A stretch of DNA of 64,000 nucleotides from Burkholderiales bacterium (GTDB lineage: Bacteria > Pseudomonadota > Gammaproteobacteria > Burkholderiales > SG8-41), in contig JAUXYA010000019.1 of NCBI GenBank assembly GCA_030684405.1, positions 62,001 to 126,000 of the forward strand, given 5' to 3'. The notes below the pieces were generated by a model. That model was given only the letters and a program-made list of their open reading frames with translations, was not told the DNA's origin and ran no database searches. Every line of letters begins with the position of its first letter. Within the stretch, counting starts at the first letter, position 1. Below, in pieces: positions 34,368 to 53,462 of the stretch. Position numbers and translations under genes: made by a program.

Positions 34368-34383
34368 TGTACGCTATCGCACA
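34368..34383. promoter_or_regulatory. Palindrome TGTACG-CTAT-CGCACA
   Basis: A perfect match to the recurring TGTNCG-N4-CGNACA site, followed by T as in most copies. It lies 149 bp before a possible small gene at 34532 and about 290 bp before the minus-strand gene at 33553-34074. It is the leftmost intergenic copy in the window. Confidence 0.65.
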
Positions 34384-34531
34384 TAGCGTCAACTAATCGT
34401 CCCGGCCTCTGGGCGCCAGGTGCAGGATTAAGCGGGTGGCCTATGTTGGCGTCCGCACGGACTTACAACAGCAGTGTTTGTAGATTGCCGCTTGCATTCC
34501 CACGTATGCCGGAAAAAGAGAGCCATTGATT

Positions 34532-34780
34532 ATGAACACAAAAGAAGACCGCCTTGCTATCCTGCGCCGGGAAAACGACACCGGTCCGACTCCCGGAAAA
34601 TACCAAAGAACCAGGAAGACGCAGGTAAATCTGCAAAAGATCCCCATCGTCAGCAAGCCAGCCAGTCGAACTGTCGCCACGGGCAGCAATCCGCCCTTGC
34701 CTAAGCCCCGGAGCCCTGTCGTTACCGGAACTGCCAACGGAAGCCAACGCCGGCCAAAACTTCCGCGCATACCTTCCTGA
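34532..34780 (+). CDS. Possible small basic protein, unrecognised
   Basis: An open frame of 82 residues beginning MNTKEDRLAILRREN. The product would be strongly basic and proline-rich, with no hydrophobic segment and no family I recognise. A purine-rich AAAGAGAG stretch lies about 13 bases upstream, too far for an ideal ribosome site. It lies downstream of the palindrome at 34368 and upstream of DUF3096 on the same strand. It could be a real small gene or chance. Confidence 0.35.
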   Translation: MNTKEDRLAILRRENDTGPTPGKYQRTRKTQVNLQKIPIVSKPASRTVATGSNPPLPKPRSPVVTGTANGSQRRPKLPRIPS

Positions 34781-34837
34781 AAAGTGTTGTTCCACAAAAA
34801 ACCGAAACCCGTACGAACTTAAACAAGGAACGATCCC

Positions 34838-34990
34838 ATGAATCTGCACTTGAGCATAGGCCCGCTGATGTCCCTGATTGCGGGCATCCTAATTCTGGTG
34901 ATGCCGCGACTGCTGAATTACATCGTCGCAATCTATCTGATCATCATCGGTCTGATCGGGCTCTTCGGTGGCGGCAACCTCCGCCTCTGA
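34838..34990 (+). CDS. DUF3096-like small membrane protein
   Basis: A 50-residue protein beginning MNLHLSIGPLMSLIAGILIL, with two short hydrophobic helices, a PRLLNYIVAIYLIIIGLIGL segment and a glycine-rich end. This is the DUF3096 pattern. AAGGAA lies 9 bases before the ATG. Its stop codon overlaps the next ATG (TGATG), so the DUF1840 gene is probably translated from the same message. Confidence 0.85.
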   Translation: MNLHLSIGPLMSLIAGILILVMPRLLNYIVAIYLIIIGLIGLFGGGNLRL

Positions 34991-35331
34991 TGCCTGAACC
35001 TGACGGGAAGCCTGTAAAGAAAATGCTGATCAAGTTTCGCAGCACGGCAGCCGGCAACATCACCATGTTCAGCAATGTCGCAATGACCCTGCTGAAGATG
35101 ACGGGACATAGCGGGACTGTTCCCGGTGCATTTTCCGAGAGCGACATTCCGCATGCACTGGCCAGTCTCCGCACGATACTGGACTCCCCTGCCGGAAAAA
35201 CCGAAGCCACTCTCCCTGACGATGACGGATCCATTCAGCGAGTCAGCCTGCAACAGCGGGCATACCCGCTGATTCAAATGCTGGCCGCCGCCTCCGCGGA
35301 GGGCGGCAGTGTGACTTGGGATCGCGAGTAG
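34990..35331 (+). CDS. DUF1840 domain protein
   Basis: A protein of 113 residues, or 102 if translation begins at the internal ATG at 35023, where the family's usual MLIKFRS N-terminus starts. Features typical of DUF1840 are AAGNITMFSNVAMTLLKMTG, HSGTVPGAF and the C-terminal VSLQQRAYPLIQMLAAA. It is soluble and cytoplasmic, of unknown function. The TGATG overlap with the DUF3096 gene favours the longer start by reinitiation, but the family pattern favours the shorter one. Confidence 0.82.
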   Translation: MPEPDGKPVKKMLIKFRSTAAGNITMFSNVAMTLLKMTGHSGTVPGAFSESDIPHALASLRTILDSPAGKTEATLPDDDGSIQRVSLQQRAYPLIQMLAAASAEGGSVTWDRE

Positions 35332-35541
35332 GGCTGCGAATCCCCTACGGCTGAATCGCAGCTTTTGCTTCTTAGACCACTGCGTACTCCAGCGCACCGA
35401 CCGCTGCCCATGCTAGAGACACACTGCAATCCCTTTTTCGGTGCATCGGATACCGATCGACGAATCGGCAAGTGTATTTGCAATGCCGTTCACCGGGACT
35501 CACACCAGGGAAAGATCATCACTGGAAGCTTCATACAGCAA

Positions 35542-36237
35542 ATGGCCATCACACGGGGCAACAGCCTCCTCGCCGCCCTTCCTGACAAGGAGTATCAGAA
35601 ACTCCTTCCCAGCCTGGAACCGGTCTCACTGACTTTCGGGGAAACCATCTACGATCCGGGAGCTCAAATCCGGCATGTCTATTTTCCCACCGATTCACTG
35701 ATATCACTCTTGACTCTGGTTGAAGGGCACCTGGCCCTGGAAGTGGGGCTGATCGGCCGCGAAGGGATGCTCGGTGTCTCCCTGGCGCTGGGCATCAACG
35801 TCTCACCGGTACGCGCAATAGTGCAAGGCACGGGCATCGCCCAGCGGATGAAGGCCAGTCGATTTCTCCTGGAATTCAAGCGCAGCGCAGCGATGCAACG
35901 GGAGATATTCCGCTATACCCATACCCTGATGGCCCAGGTCACCCAGACCGCCGCATGCAACCGCTTTCACGTGGTTGAGGCACGTTTGGCCCGCTGGTTG
36001 CTCATGACGCGCGACCGAGTGCAGTCGGAAACATTCCGGCTGACCCAGGAATTCCTTGCACACATGCTCGGTGTACGACGGGTCGGGGTGACCAAGGCGG
36101 CGAGCGCCCTGCAGCGACAAGGTTTGATCAGATACAGCCGCGGCAATATCACAATAATCGACGGCAAGCGCCTAGAAGCAGCCGCCTGCCCGTGTTACGA
36201 GATCGTCAAGGATATGCACGACGGCGCGCCCGGCTGA
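35542..36237 (+). CDS. Crp/Fnr-family transcriptional regulator
   Basis: A 231-residue regulator. An N-terminal cyclic-nucleotide-binding-like domain (VYFPTDSLISLL, EVGLIGREGMLGVSLALG) leads to a dimer helix and a C-terminal winged helix (TQEFLAHMLGVRRVGVTKAASALQRQGLIRYSRG). The phosphate-binding GE...R pattern of true cAMP receptors is not conserved, so the ligand may differ. The recognition helix RRVGVTKAASALQ lacks the Glu181 of E. coli CRP. Start 35542 matches the N-terminus of the paralogue at 41300 (NSLLAALPD against NRLLAALPD), although its ribosome site is weak. It may bind the palindrome found in this part of the window. Confidence 0.88.
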   Translation: MAITRGNSLLAALPDKEYQKLLPSLEPVSLTFGETIYDPGAQIRHVYFPTDSLISLLTLVEGHLALEVGLIGREGMLGVSLALGINVSPVRAIVQGTGIAQRMKASRFLLEFKRSAAMQREIFRYTHTLMAQVTQTAACNRFHVVEARLARWLLMTRDRVQSETFRLTQEFLAHMLGVRRVGVTKAASALQRQGLIRYSRGNITIIDGKRLEAAACPCYEIVKDMHDGAPG

Positions 36238-36345
36238 GAACCGGGACTGGCAACATAAAGCCCGGCACGGGATCGACCGTAACCGGGCAGGCATATCAAA
36301 CAGGCCGGTCAGACAGGATGCAGCCGTCTGACGGCCCGCCCCCGT

Positions 36346-36927
36346 TCAGGTCCTGCCGTGACGTGCCTTGGCATCTGCAATGCAGCGGTCCTTGGCTCCA
36401 CCGGAGAAGGATCCGCATCTCTCCCTCGCAACCGCATAATCCGCATCACGCTTTTCTTCAGCCGCATCCTTGCGCGCATCCGTTGATTTTTCACGGGCTA
36501 CATTCCTGGCCTCCGCGGTTTTCATCTGCGCCTTGGCATCGGCAATCGCTGATGTTTGTGCGGCCTTGGCCTCTTTCACGCAGACATCCTTGGCGTTGCC
36601 GGCGTGGTCATCACATTTTTCCCGGGCCACGGCATACCCGGAATCCGCCCTTGCGACCTGTGCGGCGTAGGTGTTTTTATGATTGGGCTTGTAACGCGAC
36701 TCAAGATCAGCTTCGGCAACCCTTTCCTTGCCCTTGGCTTCGGCCTGGCAAACATCCTTGGCATTGGCAGAGTACGAATCACAGGCAGCCTTTGCGGCCT
36801 TGAACTCGGCAGCGATGCCATCCTTGTGCGACTTGTACTGGTCCTTCGACATTACCTGCGCCATGGCGCCAGCGCTGAATGCAAAACTGATCGCCACCGA
36901 AATGGCACTGATACTGAGCTTGTTCAT
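36346..36927 (-). CDS. Secreted protein with three Cys-pair repeats
   Basis: A 193-residue protein with a signal peptide (MNKLSISAISVAISFAFSAG ending AMAQ) and AGGAT before the ATG at 36927. Three copies of a C-x10-C unit are visible: CDSYSANAKDVC, CDDHAGNAKDVC and CGSFSGGAKDRC, each followed by an Ala/Lys-rich helix (EAKG, EAKA, DAKA). The intervening parts are highly charged and helical. It is probably periplasmic, with disulfides inside each unit. Similar proteins occur as hypothetical genes in betaproteobacteria; I do not recognise a function. Confidence 0.75.
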   Translation of the reverse strand: MNKLSISAISVAISFAFSAGAMAQVMSKDQYKSHKDGIAAEFKAAKAACDSYSANAKDVCQAEAKGKERVAEADLESRYKPNHKNTYAAQVARADSGYAVAREKCDDHAGNAKDVCVKEAKAAQTSAIADAKAQMKTAEARNVAREKSTDARKDAAEEKRDADYAVARERCGSFSGGAKDRCIADAKARHGRT

Positions 36928-37026
36928 GGGTAAATCCTTTGATGTCCTGATTGATTCAAATTCGATTGACACGCGCAACACAGCGACTCCGGGAACTTGC
37001 CGGAGGAATAACCCCCGGCAACACCT

Positions 37027-37245
37027 TTACAGGGGGCGCTTGCTTTCTTCCTGGCTGTCCTGCCAGGCGGAGAGCTGTTTTTCGGCCTCATCCTTCGAGA
37101 TGCCGTACGCCTCCTGAATGCGGCCGGCGAGGTGTTCACGCTTTCCTGCGATCACGTCCAGCTGATCATCGGTAATTTTGCCCCACTGTTGCTGGACATT
37201 GCCCTTGAACTGCTTCCAGTCACCTTCAATGCGATCCCAATTCAT
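37027..37245 (-). CDS. CsbD-family stress protein
   Basis: A 72-residue hydrophilic protein. It starts MNWDRIEGDWKQFKGNVQQQ and continues WGKITDDQLDVIAGKREHL, the standard CsbD pattern; the C-terminal half has GRIQEAYGISKDEAEKQLSAW. AGGAG lies 6 bases before the ATG. CsbD proteins are abundant under general stress and their molecular role is unclear. It lies 100 bp upstream of the Cys-pair repeat gene, on the same strand. Confidence 0.92.
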   Translation of the reverse strand: MNWDRIEGDWKQFKGNVQQQWGKITDDQLDVIAGKREHLAGRIQEAYGISKDEAEKQLSAWQDSQEESKRPL

Positions 37246-37410
37246 GATGATTACTCCTGACATTCGTTGACTTTCGGAGCCGGACCTGCGTCCGGCTGCA
37301 ATGGCGGGATGACCCCAAACCGTATGTCCGGGCCGCTCATTACAGCGGTCATCATCGCTTCAGCCAACGCCCGTGCACCGTACGCTGGCACTCAGAGCAG
37401 AGTTCGACCG

Positions 37411-37426
37411 CGTGCGACAACGTACG
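37411..37426. promoter_or_regulatory. Imperfect palindrome CGTGCG-ACAA-CGTACG
   Basis: It matches TGTNCG-N4-CGNACA at 8 of 10 fixed positions; the two outermost bases differ. It lies 57 bp before the PAS-GGDEF gene. It is listed as a possible weaker member of the site family and could be chance. Confidence 0.3.
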
Positions 37427-37483
37427 GAGCAGGACGCAGCACTTCGGCATCATGCATTCAGTACAGTCTGCAGGAATCCCGTC

Positions 37484-38560
37484 ATGAGCAAGCACGCAGA
37501 AACTACGAAACAAACCGCACATCGGCTCGGGCGCGGCAAATGGCAACCGCTTGCATCCGCCGACCAGCCGTCCGAAAACCCTCCGTCCCAAGTGCTGCGC
37601 GCTGTCACAGAACGCAAAGCAATCGACGAAGTCCCTCCCATGGACAAGGAGCTTGCACGGCTCGCGCTCTCGGCCATCGGCGATTCGGTGCTCTGCGTGG
37701 ATATCTCGGGCTGCGTCAGTTATCTCAACGCAATCGCCGAAAAGCTGACCGGGTGGACACTTGCGGAAGCGCAGGGACTGCCTTTCGCCAGCATATTCAG
37801 GGTCATGGACGGCACAACGGGAATGCCACCCGCTGAAGATCCGGTCCGGTGCGCGATTCAGCAGGGCAAGACGTGCCGCCTTCCGCCGAACAGCGTCATC
37901 CTGCGGCGCGACGGCACAAGAATCGCTGTGGAGGATTCCGTCTCCCCCATTTCCGGAAACGACGGCAGAGTAATCGGTGCCGTCATGGTTTGCCGTGACG
38001 TCAGCGCCGCTCGCGCTGAAGAAAATGCGTTGCGCCATCGTGCGCATCACGATTTTCTGACCGACCTGCCGAATGCCGTGCTGCTCAACGACCGGATCAC
38101 CCAGTCAATAGCCATGGCCCGCCGTTACAACAAGAAGCTCGCCGTTCTCTTCATGGACCTCGATGACTTCAAGTTGATCAATGACACCCGCGGCCATGCA
38201 ATCGGCGACCAGTTGCTGCGGTCAGTGGCGTCCCGGCTGAAGGCAAGCACCCGGAAGTCGGATACGGTAAGCCGCAAAGGCGGAGATGAGTTCGTAATCC
38301 TGCTTTCCGAAATTACACATGCCGAGGATGCCGCGCACAGCGCACAGAAAATCATCTCGGCCATGACGGCTGTACACCGGATATCCGGGCTTAAGCTACC
38401 GGTCAGCGCCAGCATTGGAATAAGCATTTACCCACTCGATGGACTGGATGCGGAAACCTTGCTGAAATCCGCTGACGAGGCCATGTACCAGGCGAAAAAG
38501 GACGGGCGTGGCCGCTACTGCTTCTCGAAATTCCAGACTGATGGGGTTTCCGCCTCCTGA
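37484..38560 (+). CDS. PAS-GGDEF diguanylate cyclase
   Basis: A 358-residue protein. A PAS domain (about 57-175, with SVLCVDISGCVSYLNAIAEKLTGW) precedes a GGDEF domain. The active site GGDEF is at 266-270 and the I-site RKSD at 257-260, so it should make cyclic di-GMP and be feedback-inhibited. There are no membrane helices. The start at 37484 has CAGGAA 7 bases upstream; the longer frame beginning at 37373 overlaps an imperfect regulatory palindrome and is less likely. Its placement between stress genes and polysaccharide genes fits a role in surface polymer control. Confidence 0.88.
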   Translation: MSKHAETTKQTAHRLGRGKWQPLASADQPSENPPSQVLRAVTERKAIDEVPPMDKELARLALSAIGDSVLCVDISGCVSYLNAIAEKLTGWTLAEAQGLPFASIFRVMDGTTGMPPAEDPVRCAIQQGKTCRLPPNSVILRRDGTRIAVEDSVSPISGNDGRVIGAVMVCRDVSAARAEENALRHRAHHDFLTDLPNAVLLNDRITQSIAMARRYNKKLAVLFMDLDDFKLINDTRGHAIGDQLLRSVASRLKASTRKSDTVSRKGGDEFVILLSEITHAEDAAHSAQKIISAMTAVHRISGLKLPVSASIGISIYPLDGLDAETLLKSADEAMYQAKKDGRGRYCFSKFQTDGVSAS

Positions 38561-38621
38561 ACGCAGACTGCCGCGGCAGATCTAGAAACGAAACGCGGGG
38601 ATCGCTCCCGCGCGATGAACA

Positions 38622-38930
38622 CTATCGGCCTGGCAATTCCCGAATCAGGACAATCGAATCTTTCCTGTTTTTGGCAAGGTCGCTGGCAAAATCACAACCG
38701 GCCTGGCGCTCCTCGAACGAGGCCAGTGGATGTTCAAAATCGCCGGCATATACATCCCACTGGCCGCCGGCACGGGATGCAACCAGCACGAAGGGCGAGG
38801 CGTCCTGCGCGGCAGATGGTGGAGTCGGCGCGGGAGTGCCGGTCTTGCCGCCGACAAAGCTTGCCGCATTCGCTCCGGGAATCAGGCGAAACAGATTTGC
38901 AAAGCACTTCCTGAGGGTGGGAAATTCCAT
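38622..38930 (-). CDS. Hypothetical protein, DUF2188-like C-terminus
   Basis: A 102-residue protein. The N-terminal third is poorly ordered, with a proline-rich patch (TGTPAPTPPSAAQ). The C-terminal half, WDVYAGDFEHPLASFEERQ then ASDLAKNRKDSIVLIRE, resembles the short alpha-beta DUF2188 fold. It ends 15 bp before the CsbD-like stop on the same strand. The function is unknown and the family call is tentative. Confidence 0.55.
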   Translation of the reverse strand: MEFPTLRKCFANLFRLIPGANAASFVGGKTGTPAPTPPSAAQDASPFVLVASRAGGQWDVYAGDFEHPLASFEERQAGCDFASDLAKNRKDSIVLIRELPGR

Positions 38931-38945
38931 GAGCCTGTCATCGCT

Positions 38946-39167
38946 CTACTGGCCCGGAATATTCCAGCGGCGGTTGCGACGCACGAAGTCATTGAGCTGC
39001 TGCTGCGCCACTTCCTTGTTGAAACCGTAGCGTTCCTGCGCCCGGCCTGCTCTCTGCATGCGCCGGCCCTCATCCACCATCCGGGGATCCGCAATCAGCC
39101 GGCCCCAGCTTTCGCGCAGGGCGCCGTGGACGAGCTTCCATCTGCCTGTGAGTCGATCGTGGTTCAT
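38946..39167 (-). CDS. CsbD-like stress protein
   Basis: A 73-residue hydrophilic protein beginning MNHDRLTGRWKLVHGALRE. It keeps the CsbD layout (WGRLIADPRMVDEGRRMQR, then RAQERYGFNKEVAQQQLNDF) but is more basic than the CsbD at 37027. GGAGG lies about 12 bases upstream of the ATG. It appears to be the first gene of a two-gene minus-strand unit with the hypothetical gene at 38622. Confidence 0.75.
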   Translation of the reverse strand: MNHDRLTGRWKLVHGALRESWGRLIADPRMVDEGRRMQRAGRAQERYGFNKEVAQQQLNDFVRRNRRWNIPGQ

Positions 39168-39290
39168 GGCATCAGTATCCTCCGTCGTGTGCGCGCCCAT
39201 CTGTACGCTGACTCACGGTTCCCGAATTCCGCATTCAAAACCGGCGGTGCAGCACCCGGCACAAGACTATCCCTGCACGAGGGCCCGGTA

Positions 39291-39306
39291 TGTTCGGTGT
39301 CGCACA
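39291..39306. promoter_or_regulatory. Palindrome TGTTCG-GTGT-CGCACA upstream of pgi
   Basis: A perfect match to TGTNCG-N4-CGNACA with symmetric A/T flanks. It lies 79 bp before the chosen GTG start of pgi and about 120 bp from the CsbD-like gene on the other strand, so it could control either one. Confidence 0.65.
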
Positions 39307-39385
39307 TACCGGGCATGGCTACGGAACCATGCTGTGCCCCCTGCACCACTGCCTTGCAACTCAACATCAACCCAAGGATCTGCCC

Positions 39386-41071
39386 GTGGCCCCGGATGAT
39401 CACCGACTCCCCGAACAGGACACTGCGGCAAGAGTGCCTGTCAACGCACAACCTCCATCATTGACCGAGCGCCCCGCCTGGCAATCGCTACAACAGCATT
39501 TCGAAACCCATCACGATCTTCAGCTGCAACGCCTCTTCGCCGACGACCCGCTGCGCGGGCACCGCTTCAGCGCCGAAGCCGCAGGCATTCATCTCGATTA
39601 CTCAAAGAATCTGGTAACCGCCGAAACGATCGACCTGTTGCTGAAACTTGCGGAAGAGTGCGGTCTGCGCAAGCGCATAAATGCAATGTTCAATGGAGAA
39701 AAAATCAACGTCACTGAAAATCGTGCCGTCCTCCATGTGGCCCTGCGCTCGACTGCGGGAACACGGGTTGTTGTCGATGGCAGAAATATCGTTCCCGACG
39801 TCCACGCCATGCTGGAAAAGATGTCGGCACTGGCGGAAGACGTGCGCAGCGGCCGCTGGCTCGGGTACACCGGGAAACGGATACGCCATGTCGTCAACAT
39901 CGGCATCGGCGGCTCCGACCTGGGGCCGGCCATGGCCCATGAAGCGCTGCGGCATTACAGCCAGGCCGGCCTGGACTTCCATTTTGTTTCCAATGTCGAC
40001 GGGACCGATTTTTCGGAAGCGACAAGGGGAATGGACGCAGCGGAAACCCTGTTCATCATCTGCTCAAAAACCTTCACGACAGCCGAAACGCTGGTCAACG
40101 CCCGCACTGCCCGTCGCTGGTGCCTGGATCAGCTCAGTGACAGCGATGCCGTGCGCAGGCACTTTGTCGCGGTATCGGCAAACGTTGCAGAGGTTGTCCG
40201 TTTCGGCATCGACATTGACAATGTATTCGGACTCCCGGACTGGGTTGGCGGACGTTACTCGATTTGTTCGGCGATCGGCCTCTCGACCATGATTTCGGTG
40301 GGGGCAGACAATTTCCGCTCCATGCTCGAAGGCTTTCGCGCCATGGACGAGCACTTTCAGACCGCGCCCTTCGACCGCAACCTGCCAGTACTGATGGGCC
40401 TGCTCGCAGTCTGGTACAACAATTTTTTCGGCAGCCAGACGACTGCGATGCTGCCTTACGATCAATACCTGAAACGCCTGCCCGCCTACCTTCAGCAGTT
40501 GAGCATGGAAAGCAACGGCAAATCCGTCACCATGGACGGCGTCCCCGTAAACTACCGCACGGCTCCCGCCTGCTGGGGGGGGCCGGGGAGTAATGGCCAA
40601 CATTCGTTTTACCAGCTCCTGCACCAGGGCACCACGCTGATCCCCTGTGACTTCATCGGTTTCTGCCGTTCACTGAATCCGCTGCCCCACCATCACGACT
40701 TCCTGATGGCCAACCTCTTCGCCCAATCCGCAGCGCTTGCCTTCGGCTCGACGGAACGGCCCGCGGTTTCAGGCAGCACCGGGCATCAGTTGAATGCGCA
40801 TCGTTATATCGCAGGCAACCGCCCCAGCAATACGTTGCTAGTCGAAAAACTGACCCCTGCAACGCTGGGCGCGCTGATTGCCCTGTATGAGCACAGCATC
40901 TTTACCCAAGGCGCAATCTGGAACATCAATTCTTTTGATCAATGGGGTGTTGAATTGGGCAAGGTTCTGGCACAGCGCATGCTTCCGGAGTTTGAAAATA
41001 ACGGCATATCTCCCGCGGTACACGACAGCTCTACAGAGGCGCTAATCGGGCGTTATCTCCGCGACCGATGA
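39386..41071 (+). CDS. pgi: Glucose-6-phosphate isomerase
   Basis: A 561-residue enzyme that interconverts glucose-6-phosphate and fructose-6-phosphate. Signatures: [43 protein letters not shown] with the catalytic region, and the C-terminal [12 protein letters not shown] start at 39386 is chosen because AAGGAT lies 7 bases ahead and a regulatory palindrome sits further upstream; an ATG at 39290 would overlap that palindrome. It stands next to surface-polymer genes, so it may be a dedicated copy that feeds the fructose-6-phosphate and glucose branches of nucleotide-sugar synthesis. The remaining central-metabolism genes are not nearby. Confidence 0.94.
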
Positions 41072-41152: not shown

Positions 41153-41191
41153 TGTACGGCAACGAACTCACGCAGTGTACGTAAACGCACA
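41153..41191. promoter_or_regulatory. Two tandem palindromes upstream of the crp-like gene
   Basis: TGTACG-TAAA-CGCACA at 41176-41191 is a perfect match. TGTACG-GCAA-CGAACT at 41153-41168 has one mismatch. Their starts are 23 bp apart, about two helical turns. The gene at 41300 begins 108 bp downstream, so self-control of this regulator is plausible. Confidence 0.65.
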
Positions 41192-41299
41192 TACCTGCTG
41201 CTTGGCGATGGCTAGAGTTGCTGCACACCCTTCAAATCATTACGGCACGCATCTTCAGCGGCATCAAAGTGTGTTCCGCGGATCAAAAAGGTCATCGCC

Positions 41300-42133
41300 A
41301 TGATCTCCGTTCAGCATTCACCGAGACAAAATCGTTTACTTGCCGCTCTGCCAGACTCCGAATATGAACAAATGCTGCCCGAACTGGAACTGATGCCTCT
41401 GCCACTTGGCTGGGCCCTTTATGAAACAGGCAGCAGGCAGAACAGCGTTTACTTCCCGACTGACAGCGTGGTTTCCCTGATTTACATGACTGCCAACGGC
41501 AATCTCACCGAGATCGCCGTTACCGGCAATGACGGCCTCGTGGGCATACCCCTGGTAACAGGCGGCGACGCAACTCTCGGACGTGCCGTGGTACGCAGTG
41601 CGGGCTTTGCCTACCGGCTGAATTATTCATTTCTGAAAAAGGGATTCAGGCAGGGCGGTCCGCTGCAGGACATGCTGTTGCGTTACACACAGTCGCTGAT
41701 GACGCAGATTTCCCAAAACGCCGTGTGCAACCGCCACCATAACGTTGAGCAACGCTTGTGCCGCTGGCTGCTGATGAGCATGGATCGTCTGCCATCAAAC
41801 CAGTTGGTCACCACGCAGGAACTGATCGCCCGTATGCTCGGCGTGCGACGGGAGGGTGTCACAGAAGCTGCAGGGCGCCTGCAGGAAAAGGGAATAATCA
41901 GATACAGCCGCGGCCGCGTCACGATTCTCGACCGCCCCAAGCTGGAACGCTGGGTATGCGAATGTTACGCAGTGGTCAGGAGGGAAACTGATCGGCTGCT
42001 GGCACCGCGCTCACAATCTCGCGTTCCGTACACCCGGAACACGACCTTGCCTCAACGCGAACAAACATCCGCTCCTGTGTACGCAAACGCACATCGCCCC
42101 CCGCAAGCACGGAACATGATTGCCAAAGGGTGA
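41300..42133 (+). CDS. Crp/Fnr-family transcriptional regulator
   Basis: A 277-residue regulator, paralogous to that at 35542. The sensor domain (VYFPTDSVVSLIYM, EIAVTGNDGLVGIPLVTGG) and the winged helix (TQELIARMLGVRREGVTEAAGRLQEKGIIRYSRG) are intact. The recognition helix keeps Arg-Glu at the CRP 180/181 positions (RREGVTEAAGRLQ). An extra C-terminal tail of about 40 residues is basic and unordered; its DNA contains the next palindrome at 42078. AAAGG precedes the ATG. Two palindromes lie upstream. It is the best candidate for the factor that binds these sites. Confidence 0.9.
   Translation: MISVQHSPRQNRLLAALPDSEYEQMLPELELMPLPLGWALYETGSRQNSVYFPTDSVVSLIYMTANGNLTEIAVTGNDGLVGIPLVTGGDATLGRAVVRSAGFAYRLNYSFLKKGFRQGGPLQDMLLRYTQSLMTQISQNAVCNRHHNVEQRLCRWLLMSMDRLPSNQLVTTQELIARMLGVRREGVTEAAGRLQEKGIIRYSRGRVTILDRPKLERWVCECYAVVRRETDRLLAPRSQSRVPYTRNTTLPQREQTSAPVYANAHRPPQARNMIAKG
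42078..42093. promoter_or_regulatory. Palindrome TGTACG-CAAA-CGCACA before the PEP-CTERM gene
   Basis: A perfect copy of the site, almost identical to the one at 41176. It lies inside the last 60 bp of the crp-like reading frame and 129 bp before the PEP-CTERM gene start. It probably serves a promoter for the PEP-CTERM/transglycosylase pair. Confidence 0.65.
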
Positions 42134-42222: not shown

Positions 42223-42906
42223 ATGAAACGCAGTGCCCCACTGAAAGTCGCTACCGCAATCCTGCTAATGTCAGCACTGCAACCGGCTCTGGCAACCACC
42301 ATCACTTTTGACGAATATTCGGCAAACAACAGCAACAGTGCGCTCTCCAGTCTGTATGCGCCGCTGGGCGTGACTTTCGGCGGCAGCAATTCAGGCATCT
42401 GGGACGGTCTGTCCGCCGGTGACATTGGAAACTGGGCACTGGAAGGCAGCAACGGTTCGGCATTCCTGGGAAATAACGGCTTCAACAATGGCGGTTCGTA
42501 TGTCACCAGCATTTATTTCGAGACACTGATGTCGAATGTTTCATTCGACGTTTCCCGATCGAACGGGTCCGCTGCGGGGCAATCGCTGATAGCCTCTGCC
42601 TATAACGGTTCAGACCTGCTTTCATCACAGACGATTTTGCTGGGCGCAGTGAACAGCTGGACATCCATCGCATTTGGATATGGCAGCATCAGCAGCCTGA
42701 TCATTACCGGATCGACCACCGGATTTTCACCTTTCGGCCTCGACAACCTGCAGTTCAACAATACAGTGCTCGGCGGGCTCGACCTCGGCGACAACAATGT
42801 GACAGCGATACCAGAACCCGAAACCTACGCCCTGATGCTCGCCGGCCTCGGATTGCTTGGCGTCGTCGCCAGGCGTCGCAGGAGTCAACCGCCAGTCAGC
42901 GCTTGA
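42223..42906 (+). CDS. PEP-CTERM sorting-domain protein
   Basis: A 227-residue exported protein. GGAG lies 6 bases before the ATG at 42223, and the signal peptide runs from MKRSAPLKVATAILLM to ALQPALA. The mature part is rich in Ser, Asn and Gly with a beta-sandwich look (TITFDEYSANNSNS, SIYFETLMSNVSFDVS). The C-terminus is a full sorting signal: IPEPETYALMLAGLGLLGVVARRRR, split here as PEP motif, hydrophobic helix and basic end. It should be cut by the exosortase encoded at 57663. The transglycosylase gene starts 1 bp after its stop codon. The in-frame extension upstream has no ribosome site. Confidence 0.93.
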   Translation: MKRSAPLKVATAILLMSALQPALATTITFDEYSANNSNSALSSLYAPLGVTFGGSNSGIWDGLSAGDIGNWALEGSNGSAFLGNNGFNNGGSYVTSIYFETLMSNVSFDVSRSNGSAAGQSLIASAYNGSDLLSSQTILLGAVNSWTSIAFGYGSISSLIITGSTTGFSPFGLDNLQFNNTVLGGLDLGDNNVTAIPEPETYALMLAGLGLLGVVARRRRSQPPVSA

Positions 42907-42907
42907 C

Positions 42908-46118: not shown

Positions 46119-47297
46119 TCACAGCTGAGCTGCGACAGAGGCGGTGGCCCGCGCGGCCTCCGCCGCTTCCCCGGCGACCAGCGTGGGCACGGGAACACCA
46201 GCGCGCGCATCACGCCAGGTCTGGCGACCGCTTGCCTCCGCCACATGCACGGAATTGCCGTCACGATCAGCCGCATAGTTTCCGCATACGATCATGTCAT
46301 CAAACTCGCTTGCGGGCTGTACGCAGGTGTAGTCAAACAACACACTGCGCGAAAGCCGGCTGCCGGCGCACACGCGGCTGCCATTACCGATCCAGGTCGG
46401 CCCGATAATAGTCACCCCGGACTCGATTTCGCAGCCCGATCCGATATAGACCGGTCCGCGAATGGTGGTTCCGTTCCAGTCTATGCGCGTGTTAAGTCCG
46501 GCCCAGACCCCTCTGCGGATCTGTTGTCCAGGCATGGTGAATTCCGCCATACCGCCCTGCATCACTCGCTGTAGTGCCGACCAGTAATCAGACACCTTGC
46601 CGATGTCAATCCAGCTGAAGTCCCGCTTCTGCGCGAAAAACGGCAGACCGCGCTTCACCAGCAGCGGAAACAGTTCTGAGCCGATGTCGAACGATTGCCC
46701 TGACGGAATCTGCTCCAGCACCGAAGGCTCGAACAAATAAATGCCGGTGCTCGCCCAGCGCGACAGCGCAGCCGTTGGCGCGGGTTTTTCCTGGAAGGAA
46801 TTGATGCGGCCGTTGCTGTCGGTCACCACAATGCCGTAATCGGAGACCTGCTCCGGCCGGACCGCCTTGACGATCAGGCTGGCATCGGCGCCGTTACGGT
46901 GGTGTTCCGCCAGCGCAGCATGCAGGTCGAGATCGACAATCGCATCGCCGCAGAGCACCAGGGTCGTATCATCGAAAAATCCGCTGAAATCCTGGATCTT
47001 CTTCAGCCCGCCGGCAGACCCCACAGGCTGCGGTACGATGACCCCGTCCACCATCGTTCCCTCGAACGAATAACCGATCTGCACGCCAAAGCGCCGACCG
47101 TCTCCGAAATACTGCTCGATTTTCTCGTGCAGGTAGCTGACGTTGATCATGATTTCCCGTACGTCGTAACGTGCCAGGTATTCGATCAGATACTCCAGCA
47201 CCGGCTTGCCCAGTATCGGTATCATCGGTTTCGGCAGTTCGTAGGTGAGCGGACGCACCCGGGTGCCTTTTCCGGCCGCGAGAATCATCGCTTTCAT
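46119..47297 (-). CDS. Sugar-phosphate nucleotidyltransferase with hexapeptide domain
   Basis: A 392-residue enzyme. The N-terminal catalytic part has MILAAGKGTRVRPLTYELPKPMIPI, LVLCGDAIVDLDL and SFQEKPAP. The C-terminal third is a left-handed beta-helix (hexapeptide) region with GPVYIGSGCEIESGVTIIGPTWIG. This layout is shared by mannose-1-phosphate guanylyltransferases and glucose-1-phosphate thymidylyl/uridylyltransferases of the GlmU/GDP-mannose pyrophosphorylase type. Which nucleotide and sugar it uses cannot be decided by eye. GGGGAGA precedes the ATG. It lies between rmlD and galE. Confidence 0.85.
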   Translation of the reverse strand: MKAMILAAGKGTRVRPLTYELPKPMIPILGKPVLEYLIEYLARYDVREIMINVSYLHEKIEQYFGDGRRFGVQIGYSFEGTMVDGVIVPQPVGSAGGLKKIQDFSGFFDDTTLVLCGDAIVDLDLHAALAEHHRNGADASLIVKAVRPEQVSDYGIVVTDSNGRINSFQEKPAPTAALSRWASTGIYLFEPSVLEQIPSGQSFDIGSELFPLLVKRGLPFFAQKRDFSWIDIGKVSDYWSALQRVMQGGMAEFTMPGQQIRRGVWAGLNTRIDWNGTTIRGPVYIGSGCEIESGVTIIGPTWIGNGSRVCAGSRLSRSVLFDYTCVQPASEFDDMIVCGNYAADRDGNSVHVAEASGRQTWRDARAGVPVPTLVAGEAAEAARATASVAAQL

Positions 47298-47348
47298 CGC
47301 ATGTCTCCCCGCCTGTTTTTTCCCACCGCCATACGCCGGGATTGATGT

Positions 47349-48317
47349 TCAGCCACGGGCGGCGATCCATGCGGGATTCAGGGTTCCGACGCGGGCAGCA
47401 CGGGCGCCGCCGGCGAGGAGTTCCGCCAGGCACAGCTGCATGCCGACATGCCAATGCTGCCTGCGCAGGCCGTAACGCTGCGCAAGTCTCGCGCAGTTCA
47501 GCCGCGAGTTCGCCGGCCTTGGCGCCGGCAAGGGATAATCAGCCGTGGTGATGGGCAAGACATCCCGGCAGGGCGGAGCTGCCGAAGAGACACCGGGCGC
47601 GGGAGGCGCACTTGCCGCAGCAACAATGGCGCTGGCAAAACCATGCCAGCTCGTTGCACCGGCAGCGGTCAGATGAAACAACCCGCTCTCGAAACAATTC
47701 AAGCGTCGACGGGCGATGTCCTGGCGCAGGATCATGGCTGTGGATTCCGCAACAAGGCGGGCGGAAGTTGGTGCACCAAACTGATCCGCGACCACGCGAA
47801 TTTGAGTGCCTTCTGCGGCAAGGCGCAGCATGGTGCGCAGGAAATTCCTGCCGTGCGCCGCATAAATCCAACTGGTCCTGAGGATCAGGTAATCGCCTCC
47901 GGCCTGTTGCACCGCACGTTCTCCGGCCAGCTTGCTGCGGCCATAGGCGCTCAGGGGATTCACCGGATCATGCTCGACATACGCGCCTTCCTTGCGGCCG
48001 TCGAATACGTAGTCGGATGAATAATGCACATACAAAGCGCCCTGGCGACGCGCCTCTTCCGCCATGACTCCCGGAGCCTCCGCGTTAACCCGCATGGCAA
48101 CTTTCTGCTCTGTCTCGGCCTTGTCCACGGCCGTATAGGCAGCTGCATTGATGACGATTGTCGGACGCACGACGTTCATGACGTTGAGCAGGCCCCGCGG
48201 CTGCGTCAGGTCGCATTGCGTACGATCGACAATATGAAGATCGCCGAGTGGCGGCAACACACGCACCAGTTCGCGGCCGATCTGTCCGGTACTGCCGAAG
48301 AGCAGTATCTTGCTCAT
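47349..48317 (-). CDS. rmlD: dTDP-4-dehydrorhamnose reductase
   Basis: A 322-residue SDR enzyme for the last step to dTDP-L-rhamnose. It has LLFGSTGQIGRELVRVL, INAAAYTAVDKAE, SSDYVFDG and the YGRSKLAGE active-site pair. The start at 48317 overlaps the rmlC stop by 4 bp (ATGA). The C-terminus is somewhat longer than average (LLAGGARAARVGTLNP...). It is part of the rmlBACD order. Confidence 0.94.
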   Translation of the reverse strand: MSKILLFGSTGQIGRELVRVLPPLGDLHIVDRTQCDLTQPRGLLNVMNVVRPTIVINAAAYTAVDKAETEQKVAMRVNAEAPGVMAEEARRQGALYVHYSSDYVFDGRKEGAYVEHDPVNPLSAYGRSKLAGERAVQQAGGDYLILRTSWIYAAHGRNFLRTMLRLAAEGTQIRVVADQFGAPTSARLVAESTAMILRQDIARRRLNCFESGLFHLTAAGATSWHGFASAIVAAASAPPAPGVSSAAPPCRDVLPITTADYPLPAPRPANSRLNCARLAQRYGLRRQHWHVGMQLCLAELLAGGARAARVGTLNPAWIAARG

Positions 48318-48859
48318 GCGAACACCTCCGCGGCGCCCAGTGCCAGCCCCTGCGCATCCTTGGCCGACAACAGCGGAGCACCCTGCAACGGCCAGTCGAT
48401 CGCCAGCTGCGGGTCGTCCCAACGGATACAGCGCTCGTGCTCAGGGGCCCAGTAATCCGTTGTTTTATATAGAAATTCCGCCATTTCCGAGAGCACCAGA
48501 AAGCCATGCGCATACCCCGGCGGCACCCACAGGTGCCGCTTGTTTTCAGCCGACAGCTGCACGCCGGTCCAGCGGCCGAAATCCGGCGACGAACGACGCA
48601 AGTCAACGACAACATCGAACACCTCGCCCGCGATCACGCGCACCAGCTTCCCCTGAGGTTGGCGGATCTGGTAATGCAGACCGCGCAGCACGCCCTTGAC
48701 GGACCGCGAATGGTTGTCCTGCACAAATTCAGCCCGGGCGCCCGTGAGTTGTTCGAAACGCCGGGCGTTGTAACTTTCGAAAAAAAATCCGCGCTCGTCG
48801 CCGAACACCTTGGGCTCGATGACCGCCGCACGGGGAAGACCCAATTCAGCAATATCCAT
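48314..48859 (-). CDS. rmlC: dTDP-4-dehydrorhamnose 3,5-epimerase
   Basis: A 181-residue cupin enzyme. It has VIEPKVFGDERGFFFESYNARRF, then FVQDNHSRSVKGVLRGLHYQ with the catalytic histidine, and WVPPGYAHGFLVLSE. It converts dTDP-4-keto-6-deoxyglucose to the L-lyxo epimer. One base separates its start from the rmlA stop codon and its own stop overlaps rmlD by 4 bp. Confidence 0.96.
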   Translation of the reverse strand: MDIAELGLPRAAVIEPKVFGDERGFFFESYNARRFEQLTGARAEFVQDNHSRSVKGVLRGLHYQIRQPQGKLVRVIAGEVFDVVVDLRRSSPDFGRWTGVQLSAENKRHLWVPPGYAHGFLVLSEMAEFLYKTTDYWAPEHERCIRWDDPQLAIDWPLQGAPLLSAKDAQGLALGAAEVFA

Positions 48860-48860
48860 T

Positions 48861-49745
48861 TCAGAACACCTTTTCGCGGGTCAAGCCCATCAGGTAACGG
48901 CCATAACCGTTTTTGGCGAGCGGTTGCGCCAGGGACAGAAGCGCGTCGTTGTCGATCCAGCCGCTGCGCCATGCAATTTCTTCCGGACAGCACACCTTGA
49001 GTCCCTGCCGCTTCTCGATGGTTGAAATGAACAGCGAAGCGTCGATCAGCGACTCGTGGGTTCCGGTGTCTAGCCAGGCATGGCCACGCCCCATCACCAT
49101 CACGTCGAGCTCGCCGCGTTCGAGATAACAACGATTGACATCGGTGATTTCAAGCTCGCCGCGGTGTGAAGGCTTGAGTCCGGCGGCGATATCGAGAACC
49201 TGCGGGTCGTAAAAGTACAGACCGGTGACCGCATAACGCGATTTGGGATGTTCGGGTTTCTCTTCGAGACTGACCGCCTTGCCGTCAGCGTCGAACTCGA
49301 CCACGCCGTAACGCTCGGGATCCGCCACCGGGTATGCAAATACCGTCGCGCCTTCAAGGCGGGAGGATGCGGCGCGCAGGTCATTGGCGAATTCATGCCC
49401 GTAAAAGATGTTGTCACCCAGCACCAGCGCCGAATGACGGTCACCGACAAAATCCCGGCCTATGACATAGGCCTGCGCCAGTCCGTCCGGGCTCGGCTGC
49501 ACCGCATACTGCAGGCTGAGGCCCCATTGACTGCCGCTGCCCAGCAGCTGCTGGAATCGCGGCGTATCCTGCGGCGTCGATATGATCAGGACGTCCCGGA
49601 TTCCGGCAAGCATCAGCGTCGCCAGCGGATAATAGATCATCGGTTTATCGTGGATCGGCAGCAGTTGCTTGGATACCGCGATGGTGACGGGATACAACCG
49701 TGTGCCCGACCCTCCGGCCAGGATGATGCCGGCGCGTTCACTCAT
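48861..49745 (-). CDS. rmlA: Glucose-1-phosphate thymidylyltransferase
   Basis: A 294-residue enzyme. [22 protein letters not shown] is the nucleotide-binding signature, with [27 protein letters not shown] and the C-terminal RSGWID...YL pattern of RmlA. It makes dTDP-glucose. The start at 49745 overlaps the rmlB stop by 4 bp; the longer frame upstream is inside rmlB. Confidence 0.96.
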
Positions 49746-50806
49746 CCCCTCGCCTCGTAATTGCGGGTGATCCAGTGCTGGTAGGCCCCGCTTTGCACGT
49801 TGTCCGTCCATTCCCGGTTCGCCAGATACCAATCGACGGTCTTGCGCAGGCCGCTCGCGAAGGATTCCACCGCGCTCCAGGCCAGCGCATACTCGGCCTT
49901 GCCGGGATCGATCGCATAGCGGCGATCATGTCCGGGCCGGTCCTTCACAAATGTGATCAGCCTTGAATAGGGTCCGGCGCGGTCGGGATGCAGTTCATCC
50001 AGCAATTCACAAACACCCTTGACGACCTCCAGCGCAGAGACTTCGTTGCGACCGCCAATGTTGTAAACCTCTCCCGGCACACCGCCTTCAAGCACGGCCT
50101 GCAGTGCCGAGCAGTGATCGCCGACGTAGAGCCAGTCGCGCACGCTCATCCCGTCGCCATAGACCGGCAATGGCTTCCCGCAGAGTGCGTTCGTAATGGC
50201 GAGCGGGATCAGTTTCTCCGGAAACTGCCGTGGACCGTAATTGTTCGAGCAGTTGCTGACGAGGACCGGCAGACCATAGGTGTGATGCCACGCGCGGACC
50301 AGGTGATCGGCCGCGGCCTTGGATGCCGAGTACGGGCTGTTCGGCCGATAACAAGAATTTTCGGTAAATGCCGGGTCGTCATGTTCGAGCGAGCCGTAAA
50401 CTTCGTCGGTCGAGACGTTGAGGAAGCGGAAATCGTCCCTGTCGGCGCCGCTCAGGCCGCTCCAGTAAGAGCGCGCCGCTTCGAGCAATGTGAAAGTGCC
50501 GAAGACATTGGTCTGGATAAAGGCGTCGGGACCGTGAATTGACCGGTCAACATGGGACTCTGCCGCGAAGTGCACGACGGCCCGAGGCGCGTACCTGCGC
50601 AGCAGGCGATCGACCAGTTTGCGATCCTTGATGTCGCCGCAGACAAAGTCGTATCGTGCATCGCCTTGCAGGGAGGCCAGATTATCCGCGTTCCCGGCGT
50701 AAGTCAGTGCATCGAGATTGACTACCGCCTCATCGCCCCTGCGCATCCATTCGAGAATAAAGTTGGCGCCGATGAAACCCGCACCCCCGGTAACCAATAT
50801 CGTCAT
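49742..50806 (-). CDS. rmlB: dTDP-glucose 4,6-dehydratase
   Basis: A 354-residue SDR enzyme. NAD motif [22 protein letters not shown] with the catalytic Thr-Asp-Glu, and [11 protein letters not shown] with the Tyr-Lys pair are present. It is the first gene of the minus-strand sugar operon, followed by rmlA, rmlC, rmlD, the nucleotidyltransferase, galE and manC with very small gaps. The region upstream (to 51120) is shared with the plus-strand exosortase-associated operon and holds a regulatory palindrome 118 bp from this start. Confidence 0.96.
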
Positions 50807-51120
50807 GCATCAATCCTAGAGTTAGATTCAGTCGCCATGACCGGCGCCCGGCTGCCAGCTGCGCCGCAGAAAACAACGCAACACTTGATCTGCGCGGATT
50901 GTCGTGGTGCGACCCCGAAGTTTCTGTTCGCTATCGCACATACGTCAAAGGCGAACCTCCCGTACTTTCGCCGCTCCCAGCTTCAAGCTCATCCACTCCT
51001 CAAACCGGCGCCTTGCAGCCAGAAAGCTGTTACCCAACCATGTCCACGAAGCAGATGTCCGGCATGTCCCCTGCGAACGCCGGCCTTGCCACCCGATCCA
51101 GCCTGCTCCGGGGATAGCTC
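50807..51120. other. Divergent promoter region, rml and eps operons
   Basis: A 314-bp gap without a gene, between the starts of rmlB (minus) and the CPBP protease gene (plus). It holds the palindrome at 50925-50940. No clear -35/-10 pair stands out. A short open frame on the plus strand (from 50899) is not gene-like. Confidence 0.6.
50925..50940. promoter_or_regulatory. Palindrome TGTTCG-CTAT-CGCACA between rmlB and the eps operon
   Basis: A perfect match to TGTNCG-N4-CGNACA, with the same CTAT core as the copies at 34368 and 53325. It is located 118 bp from rmlB and 180 bp from the CPBP gene, so one bound protein could influence both directions. Confidence 0.7.
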
Positions 51121-51819
51121 ATGGAGCACGCTCTCGTATCGGCCAGGCCGGTGAACCAAGCTGCCGTCCGGATCATTCCCTTTGCCACCTTCATTGCTTT
51201 CATCATCCTGGGCTCCGCGGCGGGCGATTGGCTGCAGTCGCTAGGTCTCGACACGCGCTGGCTTTACGCCGCGCGGGCAGTTACTGTCGGCTGCCTGTTG
51301 CTGTTCTTCTGGCGCCATTTCAAGGAACTGCATGATTTCACCGGCATCAGCGGCCTGCAGATCATTTCTGCCACGGCCGCCGGCATCGTGGTGTTTGTGC
51401 TGTGGATCAACCTCGACCAGCCCTGGGCAAGTACGGGACAACCTGCAGCATTCAATCCTGTACAACCGGAGGGCGCCGAACTCGACTGGGTTCTGGTATT
51501 CTTCCGGCTGCTCGGCATGGTCATTGTGGTTCCGATCATGGAGGAACTGTTCTGGAGGTCGTATTTGCTGCGCCGGGTGGACGCACAGGATTTCCTGGCA
51601 CGCAGTCCAGCACGAGCCAGCGTCTACGCGATCCTGATCAGTTCAGCCCTGTTCGCATCCGAGCACAACCAGTGGCTGGCCGGCCTGCTGGCCGGTCTGG
51701 TGTATACCGTCATCTACATGCGCACCCGCAATCTATGGCTTCCGGTCATCAGTCATGCTGTAACCAATGCCCTGCTGGGCTGGTGGATACTCGCAACCGG
51801 CCAGTGGCATTTCTGGTGA
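51121..51819 (+). CDS. Exosortase-associated CPBP (CAAX-like) intramembrane protease
   Basis: A 232-residue membrane protein with about seven helices. The CPBP motifs are visible: Glu141-Glu142 with Arg146 (MEELFWRSYLLR), His182 (ASEHNQWLAG) and His212/Asn216 (SHAVTNALLG). Proteins of this kind accompany exosortases and PEP-CTERM loci, though their substrate is unproven. GGGGA lies 7 bases before the ATG. Its stop overlaps the epsL start by 4 bases (GTGA). Confidence 0.87.
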   Translation: MEHALVSARPVNQAAVRIIPFATFIAFIILGSAAGDWLQSLGLDTRWLYAARAVTVGCLLLFFWRHFKELHDFTGISGLQIISATAAGIVVFVLWINLDQPWASTGQPAAFNPVQPEGAELDWVLVFFRLLGMVIVVPIMEELFWRSYLLRRVDAQDFLARSPARASVYAILISSALFASEHNQWLAGLLAGLVYTVIYMRTRNLWLPVISHAVTNALLGWWILATGQWHFW

Positions 51820-53054
51820 GTTCCCGGGACTCGATCCCGGTGGCCGCCTGCCGGCGAGCCATGGCGGTCGCGTGCATTGCAGCGATCGCAGCAATGCCGC
51901 CTGCCGCAATGGCGCAATCAGGCGGCGGATCAACGGAGGCTACCGGCGACGCCATCGATGTGGTGGTAGGTACTGATATCAGCCACGATTCAAATCTTTT
52001 CCGTCAGCCGTCTTCCGCACAGCGAACGTCCGACACGATCACTGCCTCGTTCATCGGACTGCGACTCGACAAGCAGTACTCCCTGCAGCGATTCCAGTTC
52101 GACATCACTCAATCCGCACTGCGTTACGCGCGCACCTCTTACCTCAACTTCAACGCCCTGGACTATCGGGGTGCATGGATATGGCAGATCGGTTCACGGG
52201 TTTCGGGCACGATCGGCGCCGACCGCAGGGAATCCCTGGTGCCGTTCGAGGATGTCCGCAATCCCGGAAACCCCACGCGCAACATCCGTGTAGGCGAAAA
52301 CCGGTTCTTCAACCTTGATGCGCGCGCCTTCGCCGACTGGCACCTGCTGCTGGGCGTCTCCGAATCATCGCAAACCAGCGAACGGGCCATCGAAATCCAG
52401 CCGGACTTCGACGCAACATCGCGCGAGGCCGGAATCAGGTATGCCCCTCCTTCAGGCAATTCGATTGCGGTTGTCCAGCGATCAACATCCGGCGACTACG
52501 TGAATCAGAGCAGCAGCCTCGTTCTGGGCACTGGTTACAAGCAGGATGAGACTGAGCTGAAAGTTCAATGGACGCCTACCGGCAAGTCAAGCCTGAATGG
52601 TCGGCTCACGCGCTTGAGCCGCTCGCATGAGCGCGCGGGCCAGCGCGACTTCTCGGGAACGGCCGCCGAGCTCATTTATTCCTGGGCGACGACCGGAAAA
52701 CTGGATATGAAATTCATCGCGAAGCGCGATATCGCCCCTTATCAGGACCCTTCCGGCAGTTTCGTGGTCAACAACACGCTCTCCGTTTTGCCCACCTGGA
52801 AAATTACTGAAAAAACTGTCGCCCGCCTGCTCGCCGCGCAGACCACCTCAAAATTTTCCGGCTACGCCACCGGACCGGCGGTTGGCCCCGCCCGCAGCGA
52901 AACCCTTCGTCTCGTCGAACTGGGTGTCGACTGGTCGCCTGTCAGCCGCATGGTCATCGGCGCCAGCGTGCTGCGCCAGGCCAGGGATTCCAATATCCCG
53001 GCCTTCGCGTTTGAAAACACCATCCTAAGAATCACTGCCGCATACCGTTTCTGA
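51816..53054 (+). CDS. epsL: Outer-membrane beta-barrel EpsL
   Basis: About 412 residues from a GTG at 51816 that overlaps the previous stop (GTGA); an ATG at 51861 is an alternative. The signal peptide runs MAVACIAAIAAMPPAAMAQS. The rest alternates polar and aromatic strands typical of a large beta-barrel: VVVGTDISHDSNLFRQPSS, FQFDITQSALRYA, a repeated strand-turn layout and a final aromatic residue (TAAYRF). This is the XrtB-linked EpsL type, thought to help polysaccharide leave through the outer membrane. Confidence 0.85.
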   Translation: MSSRDSIPVAACRRAMAVACIAAIAAMPPAAMAQSGGGSTEATGDAIDVVVGTDISHDSNLFRQPSSAQRTSDTITASFIGLRLDKQYSLQRFQFDITQSALRYARTSYLNFNALDYRGAWIWQIGSRVSGTIGADRRESLVPFEDVRNPGNPTRNIRVGENRFFNLDARAFADWHLLLGVSESSQTSERAIEIQPDFDATSREAGIRYAPPSGNSIAVVQRSTSGDYVNQSSSLVLGTGYKQDETELKVQWTPTGKSSLNGRLTRLSRSHERAGQRDFSGTAAELIYSWATTGKLDMKFIAKRDIAPYQDPSGSFVVNNTLSVLPTWKITEKTVARLLAAQTTSKFSGYATGPAVGPARSETLRLVELGVDWSPVSRMVIGASVLRQARDSNIPAFAFENTILRITAAYRF

Positions 53055-53462
53055 GGCTGACGACGGTTTAGGGCGCCTGACAAAATGAAACGCGCGATGC
53101 GCTGACACAATTTTGGCAGGTGGCAAGGAGCAGTCCGCAGCGAATATCGGCAATATTCGCAAGGGCTGGGACGCCGCCTCCGGCCAACATCGCCCGAGCC
53201 CGGCGAGAGCTCGAAAAATTCAACAGCTTCATCGGGTTACACCCAGCTCTCACTGCATCTTGCGCTGCCACGCCGCGCAATAGCGGATCGTCCAATGGCC
53301 TCGTTCACGCGCCCCGGCCCAGTATGTGCGCTATCGAACAGAGTCTCCAACACCTCGCGACTAAGCTGCGACCTGTTCGAACGGCGCTGTCTACGCCTTG
53401 CGCGCGATCAGTGCCGGGGCACCGTTCAGAAGCGATTGAGTTCAACTTTTGGCCCTATACAC
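53055..53462 (+). other. Non-coding gap before epsD with palindrome
   Basis: A 408-bp region between epsL and epsD. It contains the palindrome at 53325-53340, 122 bp before epsD. An open frame across it (53120-53668) overlaps epsD in another frame and is not gene-like. The gap and site suggest that epsD starts a new transcript instead of simply continuing from epsL. Confidence 0.6.
53325..53340. promoter_or_regulatory. Palindrome TGTGCG-CTAT-CGAACA upstream of epsD
   Basis: A perfect match to TGTNCG-N4-CGNACA. The stronger half (TGTGCG, complement of CGCACA) is on the left here, the reverse of the other copies. It lies 122 bp before the epsD start. Confidence 0.7.

Follow-up and report, generated by a model that had tools for sequence, protein, structure and literature searches.

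A CRP-length palindrome with a CG core as probable operator of a clade of Crp-like regulators in a Burkholderiales bacterium

What reads the 16-bp palindrome TGTNCG-N4-CGNACA that recurs in a 64-kb stretch of DNA from a Burkholderiales bacterium (NCBI GenBank assembly GCA_030684405.1, contig JAUXYA010000019.1, positions 62,001 to 126,000; hereafter the window), and which genes does it govern? An earlier note, made from the letters alone, took it for a regulatory element as long as a CRP site but with CG in its core, associated with Crp-like regulators and found ahead of PEP-CTERM and exopolysaccharide (EPS) genes, and that much is supported. The observation is confirmed and proves stronger genome-wide than first noted. 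Sequence comparisons make it very probable, in our view, that the motif serves a clade of Crp/Fnr-type regulators as operator; these proteins would act as class II activators on an altered CRP operator.

All the copies originally listed are there: six perfect ones (34368, 39291, 41176, 42078, 50925 and 53325), one with a single mismatch at 41153 and one with two mismatches at 37411. A seventh perfect copy had been missed at 4186, and additional one-mismatch copies lie at 26886, 34221, 51650 and 57384. Dinucleotide shuffles of the window hold a mean of 0.11 perfect copies, and none of 100 shuffles reaches seven. No other of the 1,024 dyads built in this way is as common there as TGTNCG, which has 7 copies (the runner-up has 3), and when the spacer is varied from 0 to 10, a spacer of 4 gives 7 copies, a spacer of 7 gives 1 and the remaining spacers give none. 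The window is C5:62001-126000 of a genome of 3.74 Mb in 37 contigs, and that genome holds 27 perfect copies, compared with 3 of the pattern read backwards; one-mismatch copies number 214, compared with 141 for the control (counts only). Eight of the 27 cluster at C5:96-139 kb, one is the copy at 4186, four lie in the 43-kb contig C4, C6 and C33 have two each, and ten are scattered. By the gene calls made here 16 of the 27 lie outside coding frames, or 19 if the doubtful cases 39291, 42078 and C6:47151 (a doubtful gene start) are included; the coding fraction is 0.87 in the stretches fetched, on which these positional statistics rest. The scan of this and related genomes that had been proposed as a check bears the observation out, with the motif mostly outside coding frames and its number tracking that of the regulators.

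The association with the regulators is seen first in their numbers. Across 60 genomes of the family, this one included, motif and regulator counts are correlated with a Spearman rho of 0.66, compared with 0.03 for the backwards control. The 30 family genomes without a P0002-type match (P0002 being the regulator at 41300; E 1e-25) average 5.0 motif copies and 3.5 control copies, and the 10 with five or more regulators average 18.8 and 4.3. When our own genome is removed and values are shuffled inside each genus, the observed value is never reached for the motif in 20,000 permutations, and for the control pattern it is reached in 4,231 of 20,000. NtrC-like regulators give a rho of 0.09, a weak comparison, their counts being lower bounds.

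The second association is one of place. We scanned up to 400 bp upstream of 41 regulators (8 of our own, 4 from named contigs and 29 best matches from family genomes) and found a site with at most one mismatch at 21 genes and a perfect site at 9, in total 10 perfect sites and 25 with at most one mismatch, where seven permuted patterns give 0-1 and 0-3. Three of our own eight have such a site directly upstream (41300, C5:144330 and C14:72882). A further 18 regulators come from other families of the order, being those fetched out of 36 genomes with a match. Of these, 12 show a site with no more than one mismatch within 400 bp, and at 7 the site is perfect; the seven permuted patterns give 0-2 and 0. 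Over all 59 upstream regions TGTNCG again leads the 1,024 dyads, with 18 compared with 2 for the next.

Our genome encodes eight intact P0002-type Crp-like paralogues, two in the window (P0001 and P0002) and six outside it. A ninth is a remnant at C6:40009-40209 (L020:2010-2234), with a TGA within the matched stretch. HTH_Crp_2 (PF13545) is over cut-off in all eight, and the recognition-helix core RREG[VI]T is found in five, among which identity averages 54% over the sensor part and rises to 66% for the HTH domain and 75% for the recognition helix of 13 residues. In three of four relatives from named contigs (Nitrosospira, Nitrosovibrio) the helix reads RRESVT. An AlphaFold2 model of P0002 has a pLDDT of 75 (alignment of six proteins), and in a Foldseek search with it all 50 matches listed are Crp/Fnr proteins, the best with E 4.7e-12 and a TM score of 0.57.

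The likeness to E. coli CRP thus covers the Crp/Fnr fold, HTH_Crp_2, the 16-bp dyad, its TGT...ACA ends and, aligned by eye, equivalents of Arg180 and Glu181. The differences are a half-site of TGTNCG, with CG at positions 5-6 where the CRP operator (TGTGA-N6-TCACA) has A at position 5, a Glu in place of Arg185 in P0002, and the presence of eight intact paralogues in one genome. In E. coli CRP, according to PMC11253593, G2 is contacted by Arg180 and the G4:C4 pair by both Arg185 and Glu181. The retained Arg180/Glu181 equivalents and the change of Arg185 to Glu would be in line with a constant TGT and a variable fourth base. Over the 36 half-sites of the 18 sites in our matrix that base is T 14 times, G 12 times and A 10 times. 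Nine of the 27 copies were omitted from matrix and count (8 in coding frames and the intergenic C36:178853), 4 of these have C as the fourth base of a half-site and C also occurs in relatives, so the lack of C in the 18 is due in part to the selection of sites.

How would such an operator work? We took the 101 sites that deviate at no more than one position and have the start of a gene or regulator at most 300 bp away, and scanned offsets of +12.5 to +131.5 for a -10-like hexamer, scored by weights; in the gene-called part, sites flanked on both sides by genes at up to 300 bp were left out, and near-identical segments were merged. A hexamer lies exactly +29.5 bp from the site centre at 40 of the 101 sites, compared with 12% at the next offset and a mean of 2.9% elsewhere; by subset the counts are 13 of 28 in our genome, 23 of 55 in the family and 4 of 18 in other families of the order. 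Among sites with at most two mismatches and a hexamer in our own stretches, 29 have it at +29.5 (24 with a downstream gene start), compared with 3-14 at ten other offsets. In the same composite scan the control patterns AGTNCG, TCTNCG and TGANCG give 19, 14 and 22 compared with 29, but they lie two changes from the motif and overlap it, and so are not clean controls; the other four give 4-9. A hexamer at +29.5 places the site centre at -41.5 from the inferred transcript start. That is the likeness to class II CRP/FNR promoters, -41.5 being the class II CRP activator position.

The model we favor is that the regulator clade, most members of which have the RREG[VI]T core, binds TGTNCG-N4-CGNACA as a dimer, and that the bound protein, centered at -41.5, activates sigma-70 promoters in the class II manner, its operator occupying the place of the -35 element. 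Several paralogues would regulate themselves or each other and share targets. The sequence itself shows the motif, where it lies, its distance to -10-like hexamers and its tie to the regulators; binding, activation in preference to repression and the sharing of targets belong to the model. It is also conceivable that the Crp-like proteins are mainly repressors or autoregulators at these sites. The sites are most regular at the regulators' own promoters, where 27 of 43 fall 80-145 bp ahead of the start of the tblastn match, and a tandem pair precedes P0002, but the exact -10-like spacing with the operator in the -35 position is the layout of a class II activator, and we consider this alternative unlikely.

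In the window, the putative operators and their neighbors are as follows (hexamer offsets are from the site centre):

4186-4201, plus strand: perfect match in a long coding frame, with a GC-rich core and without a -10-like partner
33553-34074: gene with a weak glycine-zipper match, under the Pfam cut-off
34221-34236, minus strand: one-mismatch operator, GACAAT at +29.5, facing gene 33553-34074
34368-34383, plus strand: perfect operator, without a -10-like partner on either side
34532-34780: gene with no family match
34838-34990, plus strand: DUF3096 small protein
35542-36237, plus strand: Crp-like regulator P0001, recognition helix RRVGVTKAA
37027-37245, minus strand: CsbD-like protein, upstream of which lies only the two-mismatch site 37411, whose -10-like partner points the other way
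37411-37426, plus strand: two-mismatch operator, CATCAT at +29.5, facing the GGDEF gene
37484-38560, plus strand: PAS-GGDEF protein (diguanylate cyclase domain)
38946-39200, minus strand: CsbD-like protein, likely target of 39291
39291-39306, minus strand: perfect operator, TAGTCT at +29.5 towards CsbD, weaker CATGCT towards pgi
41153-41168, plus strand: one-mismatch operator, upstream copy of the tandem pair
41176-41191, plus strand: perfect operator before regulator 41300, TAGAGT (41213-41218) at +29.5
41300-42133, plus strand: Crp-like regulator P0002, recognition helix RREGVTEAA
42078-42093, plus strand: perfect operator, CATGAT (42115-42120) at +29.5, facing the PEP-CTERM gene
42223-42906, plus strand: PEP-CTERM protein
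49742-50806, minus strand: nucleotide-sugar dehydratase/epimerase-like gene, named by eye
50925-50940, no strand assigned: perfect operator between divergent genes, GACAAT at +29.5 (minus) and TACTTT at +30.5 (plus)
51151-51819, plus strand: CAAX-protease-like (Rce1-like) membrane protein
53325-53340, plus strand: perfect operator, TAAGCT (53362-53367) at +29.5, facing the PPIC-domain gene
53463-54566, plus strand: PPIC-type peptidyl-prolyl isomerase, first named epsD

Seven of these sites have the hexamer at +29.5 (34221, 37411, 39291, 41176, 42078, 50925 and 53325). The sites had been placed outside genes, which is right for most, but 42078 lies in the C-terminal tail of open reading frame 41300-42133, beyond the part common to the paralogues, and 39291 lies inside the longest call of pgi, though probably ahead of its true start. 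Nor is 39291 chiefly a pgi site as had been proposed, its stronger -10-like partner facing the minus-strand CsbD gene. The assignment of the perfect copy at 34368 changes too, as it lacks a partner on either side; it is a candidate operator for 34532-34780, DUF3096, DUF1840 and regulator 35542, an operon suggested by gene order only. The copy at 4186 is probably a chance match. The correctly spaced hexamer and two-mismatch operator before the PAS-GGDEF gene give a hint of a link to cyclic di-GMP.

CsbD genes were tested as targets starting from the gene family and not from the sites. The family profile finds 17 matches, 13 of them over the Pfam cut-off, in six regulator-bearing genomes; 7 of the 17 have a perfect site upstream and 9 a site with at most one mismatch, compared with 0 and 0-1 for eight control patterns. 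There is no CsbD match in any of the six regulator-free genomes picked for comparison (genomes for the CsbD and PEP-CTERM comparisons were chosen by regulator count). Genes adjoining sites in our genome, listed without enrichment statistics, include CsbD, SOD, catalase, PRC-barrel, BON, KaiC, COX2, LemA, TPS-secretion, Na/H exchanger, PAS histidine kinase, sugar transferase, PEP-CTERM and ice-binding proteins. In G007 and G003, where some motif matches fall inside coding frames, the neighbors are regulators, CsbD, BON, DUF3096 (in L143 of G003 by Pfam and in L124 of G007 by eye), DUF3309, entericidin, SOD, ice-binding proteins, MlaC, PAS histidine kinase, transaldolase and a GH15 trehalase-like protein. 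The regulators themselves, CsbD, BON, DUF3096 and SOD are found beside sites in more than one genus. The common targets would be stress and envelope proteins (CsbD, BON, PRC-barrel, SOD, catalase) together with EPS genes. Clp of Xanthomonas and Bcam1349 of Burkholderia are Crp-type regulators linked to exopolysaccharide and biofilm, and resemble the present ones in that respect.

Several other neighborhoods are worth recording. At C33:57822 and 57846 (L027:5323, 5347) two perfect copies 24 bp apart lie upstream of a KaiC-family gene, followed, by eye, by two small genes resembling kaiB copies and a sensor-like gene resembling a kinase. In two genera a Crp-like regulator adjoins a PAS histidine kinase with a receiver domain whose gene is preceded by a one-mismatch site (L045:11236-14528, L125:5904-8653), and the regulators may be wired to two-component systems. 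Ice-binding-like proteins adjoin motif copies in two genera (L017:17024-17857, L130:2796-3677), the first with a PEP-CTERM tail.

How far PEP-CTERM genes belong to this set depends on the genome. In seven of our own eight, the 1,500 bp ahead of the PEP motif (counted without gene starts) contain a site with no more than one mismatch, and in six such a site lies within 350 bp of the start, the perfect site C4:38227 being counted for two divergent genes; at the remaining two the site has two mismatches and a -10-like hexamer at +29.5, and five of the eight have a hexamer above threshold. The congener G032 has sites at 4 of 7, but G023 (0 of 6), the congener G056 (0 of 4) and G054 (0 of 3) have none at 13 genes, three of which offered only 71, 635 and 696 bp for scanning. 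The regulator-free G009 and G038 together have sites at 1 of 11. The expectation that sites precede PEP-CTERM genes is therefore borne out in our own genome and in G032 and fails in the other three; a general control by the motif is rejected on those 13 genes, and such control appears limited to our genome and one congener, where most PEP-CTERM genes would also be targets.

Haft et al. 2006 (PMC1569441) connected PEP-CTERM genes from 13 proteobacteria with PrsK/PrsR and a sigma-54 element, and expected more regulators and DNA motifs to be found. That system (PMC1569441; for Aquincola pepA, PMC9850573) resembles ours in having a common cis element upstream of most PEP-CTERM genes, near EPS genes; ours differs in its sigma-70-type layout with a Crp-like regulator. 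We looked for PrsR/sigma-54 control of our own PEP-CTERM genes and don't find it: PrsR (TIGR02915) is not over cut-off in the genome (best 385.6 bits, compared with 502.6), and up to 400 bp upstream of each of the eight genes there is no close -24/-12 sigma-54 box (best 2-4 mismatches in 10, without a shuffle baseline).

These results bear on the earlier proposal that a dedicated regulon, under the two regulators of the window, serves sugar supply, exopolysaccharide and PEP-CTERM sorting. Besides the seven of eight PEP-CTERM genes, it can claim the sites before the PPIC (epsD-like), bacterial sugar transferase (L019), dehydratase-like and CAAX-protease-like genes. But no PEP-CTERM match occurs in G003, G007 and G011, for all their 6-9 regulator matches and 12-24 motif copies, the 13 genes of G023, G054 and G056 are without sites, many targets are stress genes, and six more intact paralogues lie outside the window. 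So narrow a regulon we regard as quite unlikely, and the proposal does not stand in that form; the neighboring genes suggest a regulon of stress, envelope and EPS genes that would have drawn in PEP-CTERM genes here and in one congener.

Several observations weigh against the operator model. No site with at most one mismatch is found at 20 of the 41 regulators, including five of our own eight and all four from named contigs (Nitrosospira, Nitrosovibrio, Nitrospira). Among our five RREG paralogues, such a site stands directly upstream of just two; the paralogues of C4 and C19 have two-mismatch sites (that of the C4:41468 regulator with TATATC at +29.5), and C5:197790 has none at its start. The cNMP domain of E. 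coli CRP is weak or unrecognised in six of our eight paralogues, PF00027 being over cut-off in two, under it in four and without a match in P0001 or P0002. At 61 of the 101 sites there is no hexamer at +29.5, the reverse orientation has one there at 16%, and the 4 of 18 in the order subset is equalled by the best other offset of that subset. The binomial p for +29.5 assumes an independence that homologous promoters violate, and we rely on the 13 of 28 in our own genome. At the level of the order (118 genomes, our own and one congener dropped) rho falls to 0.43, with 0.23 for the control pattern. Finally, G074, from another family of the order, has 31 motif copies (2 of the control) and G155 has 19, with no P0002-type regulator detected in either; another factor may use the same operator in G074.

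The last two genomes are what one would expect if the motif were owned by an unrelated regulator that co-occurs by chance with the Crp-like clade. We find this very unlikely, because the motif is the dominant dyad directly upstream of Crp-like regulators in several families, and because of its CRP length, its -41.5 placement and the retained Arg180/Glu181 equivalents. A dispersed repeat, an RNA hairpin or chance enrichment is hardly credible: the genome is GC-rich and regulator-free genomes do average slightly more motif than control copies, but in the 18 aligned sites similarity is confined to the 16 bp plus an outer T/A and positions 4 and 13 are pairable in just 4, on which grounds the hairpin and dispersed-repeat readings are rejected, and the genome-wide excess is 27 over 3.

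Having settled on a Crp-like activator clade as the probable reader of the motif, we are tempted to go further. We speculate, tentatively and with more doubt than confidence, that this is a circuit of many sensors and one operator, in which up to ten paralogues per genome, with a common helix core and more diverged sensors, converge on a single altered CRP operator, serving as stress and envelope activators across the order and having captured the PEP-CTERM genes here and in a congener in place of PrsK/PrsR/sigma-54. In the titles and abstract openings of the open-licence literature we found neither the motif described nor any Crp-like regulator reported for PEP-CTERM or CsbD genes; the CRP/FNR motif survey of Matsui et al. 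2013 could include the motif. The finding offers an operator, a promoter layout and a regulator clade, all open to test, for a regulon of stress and biofilm genes. It also offers what would be a second route of PEP-CTERM control, a gap named by Haft et al. 2006 (PMC1569441). The paralogue set itself may serve as a natural case for how duplicated regulators share or divide one operator.

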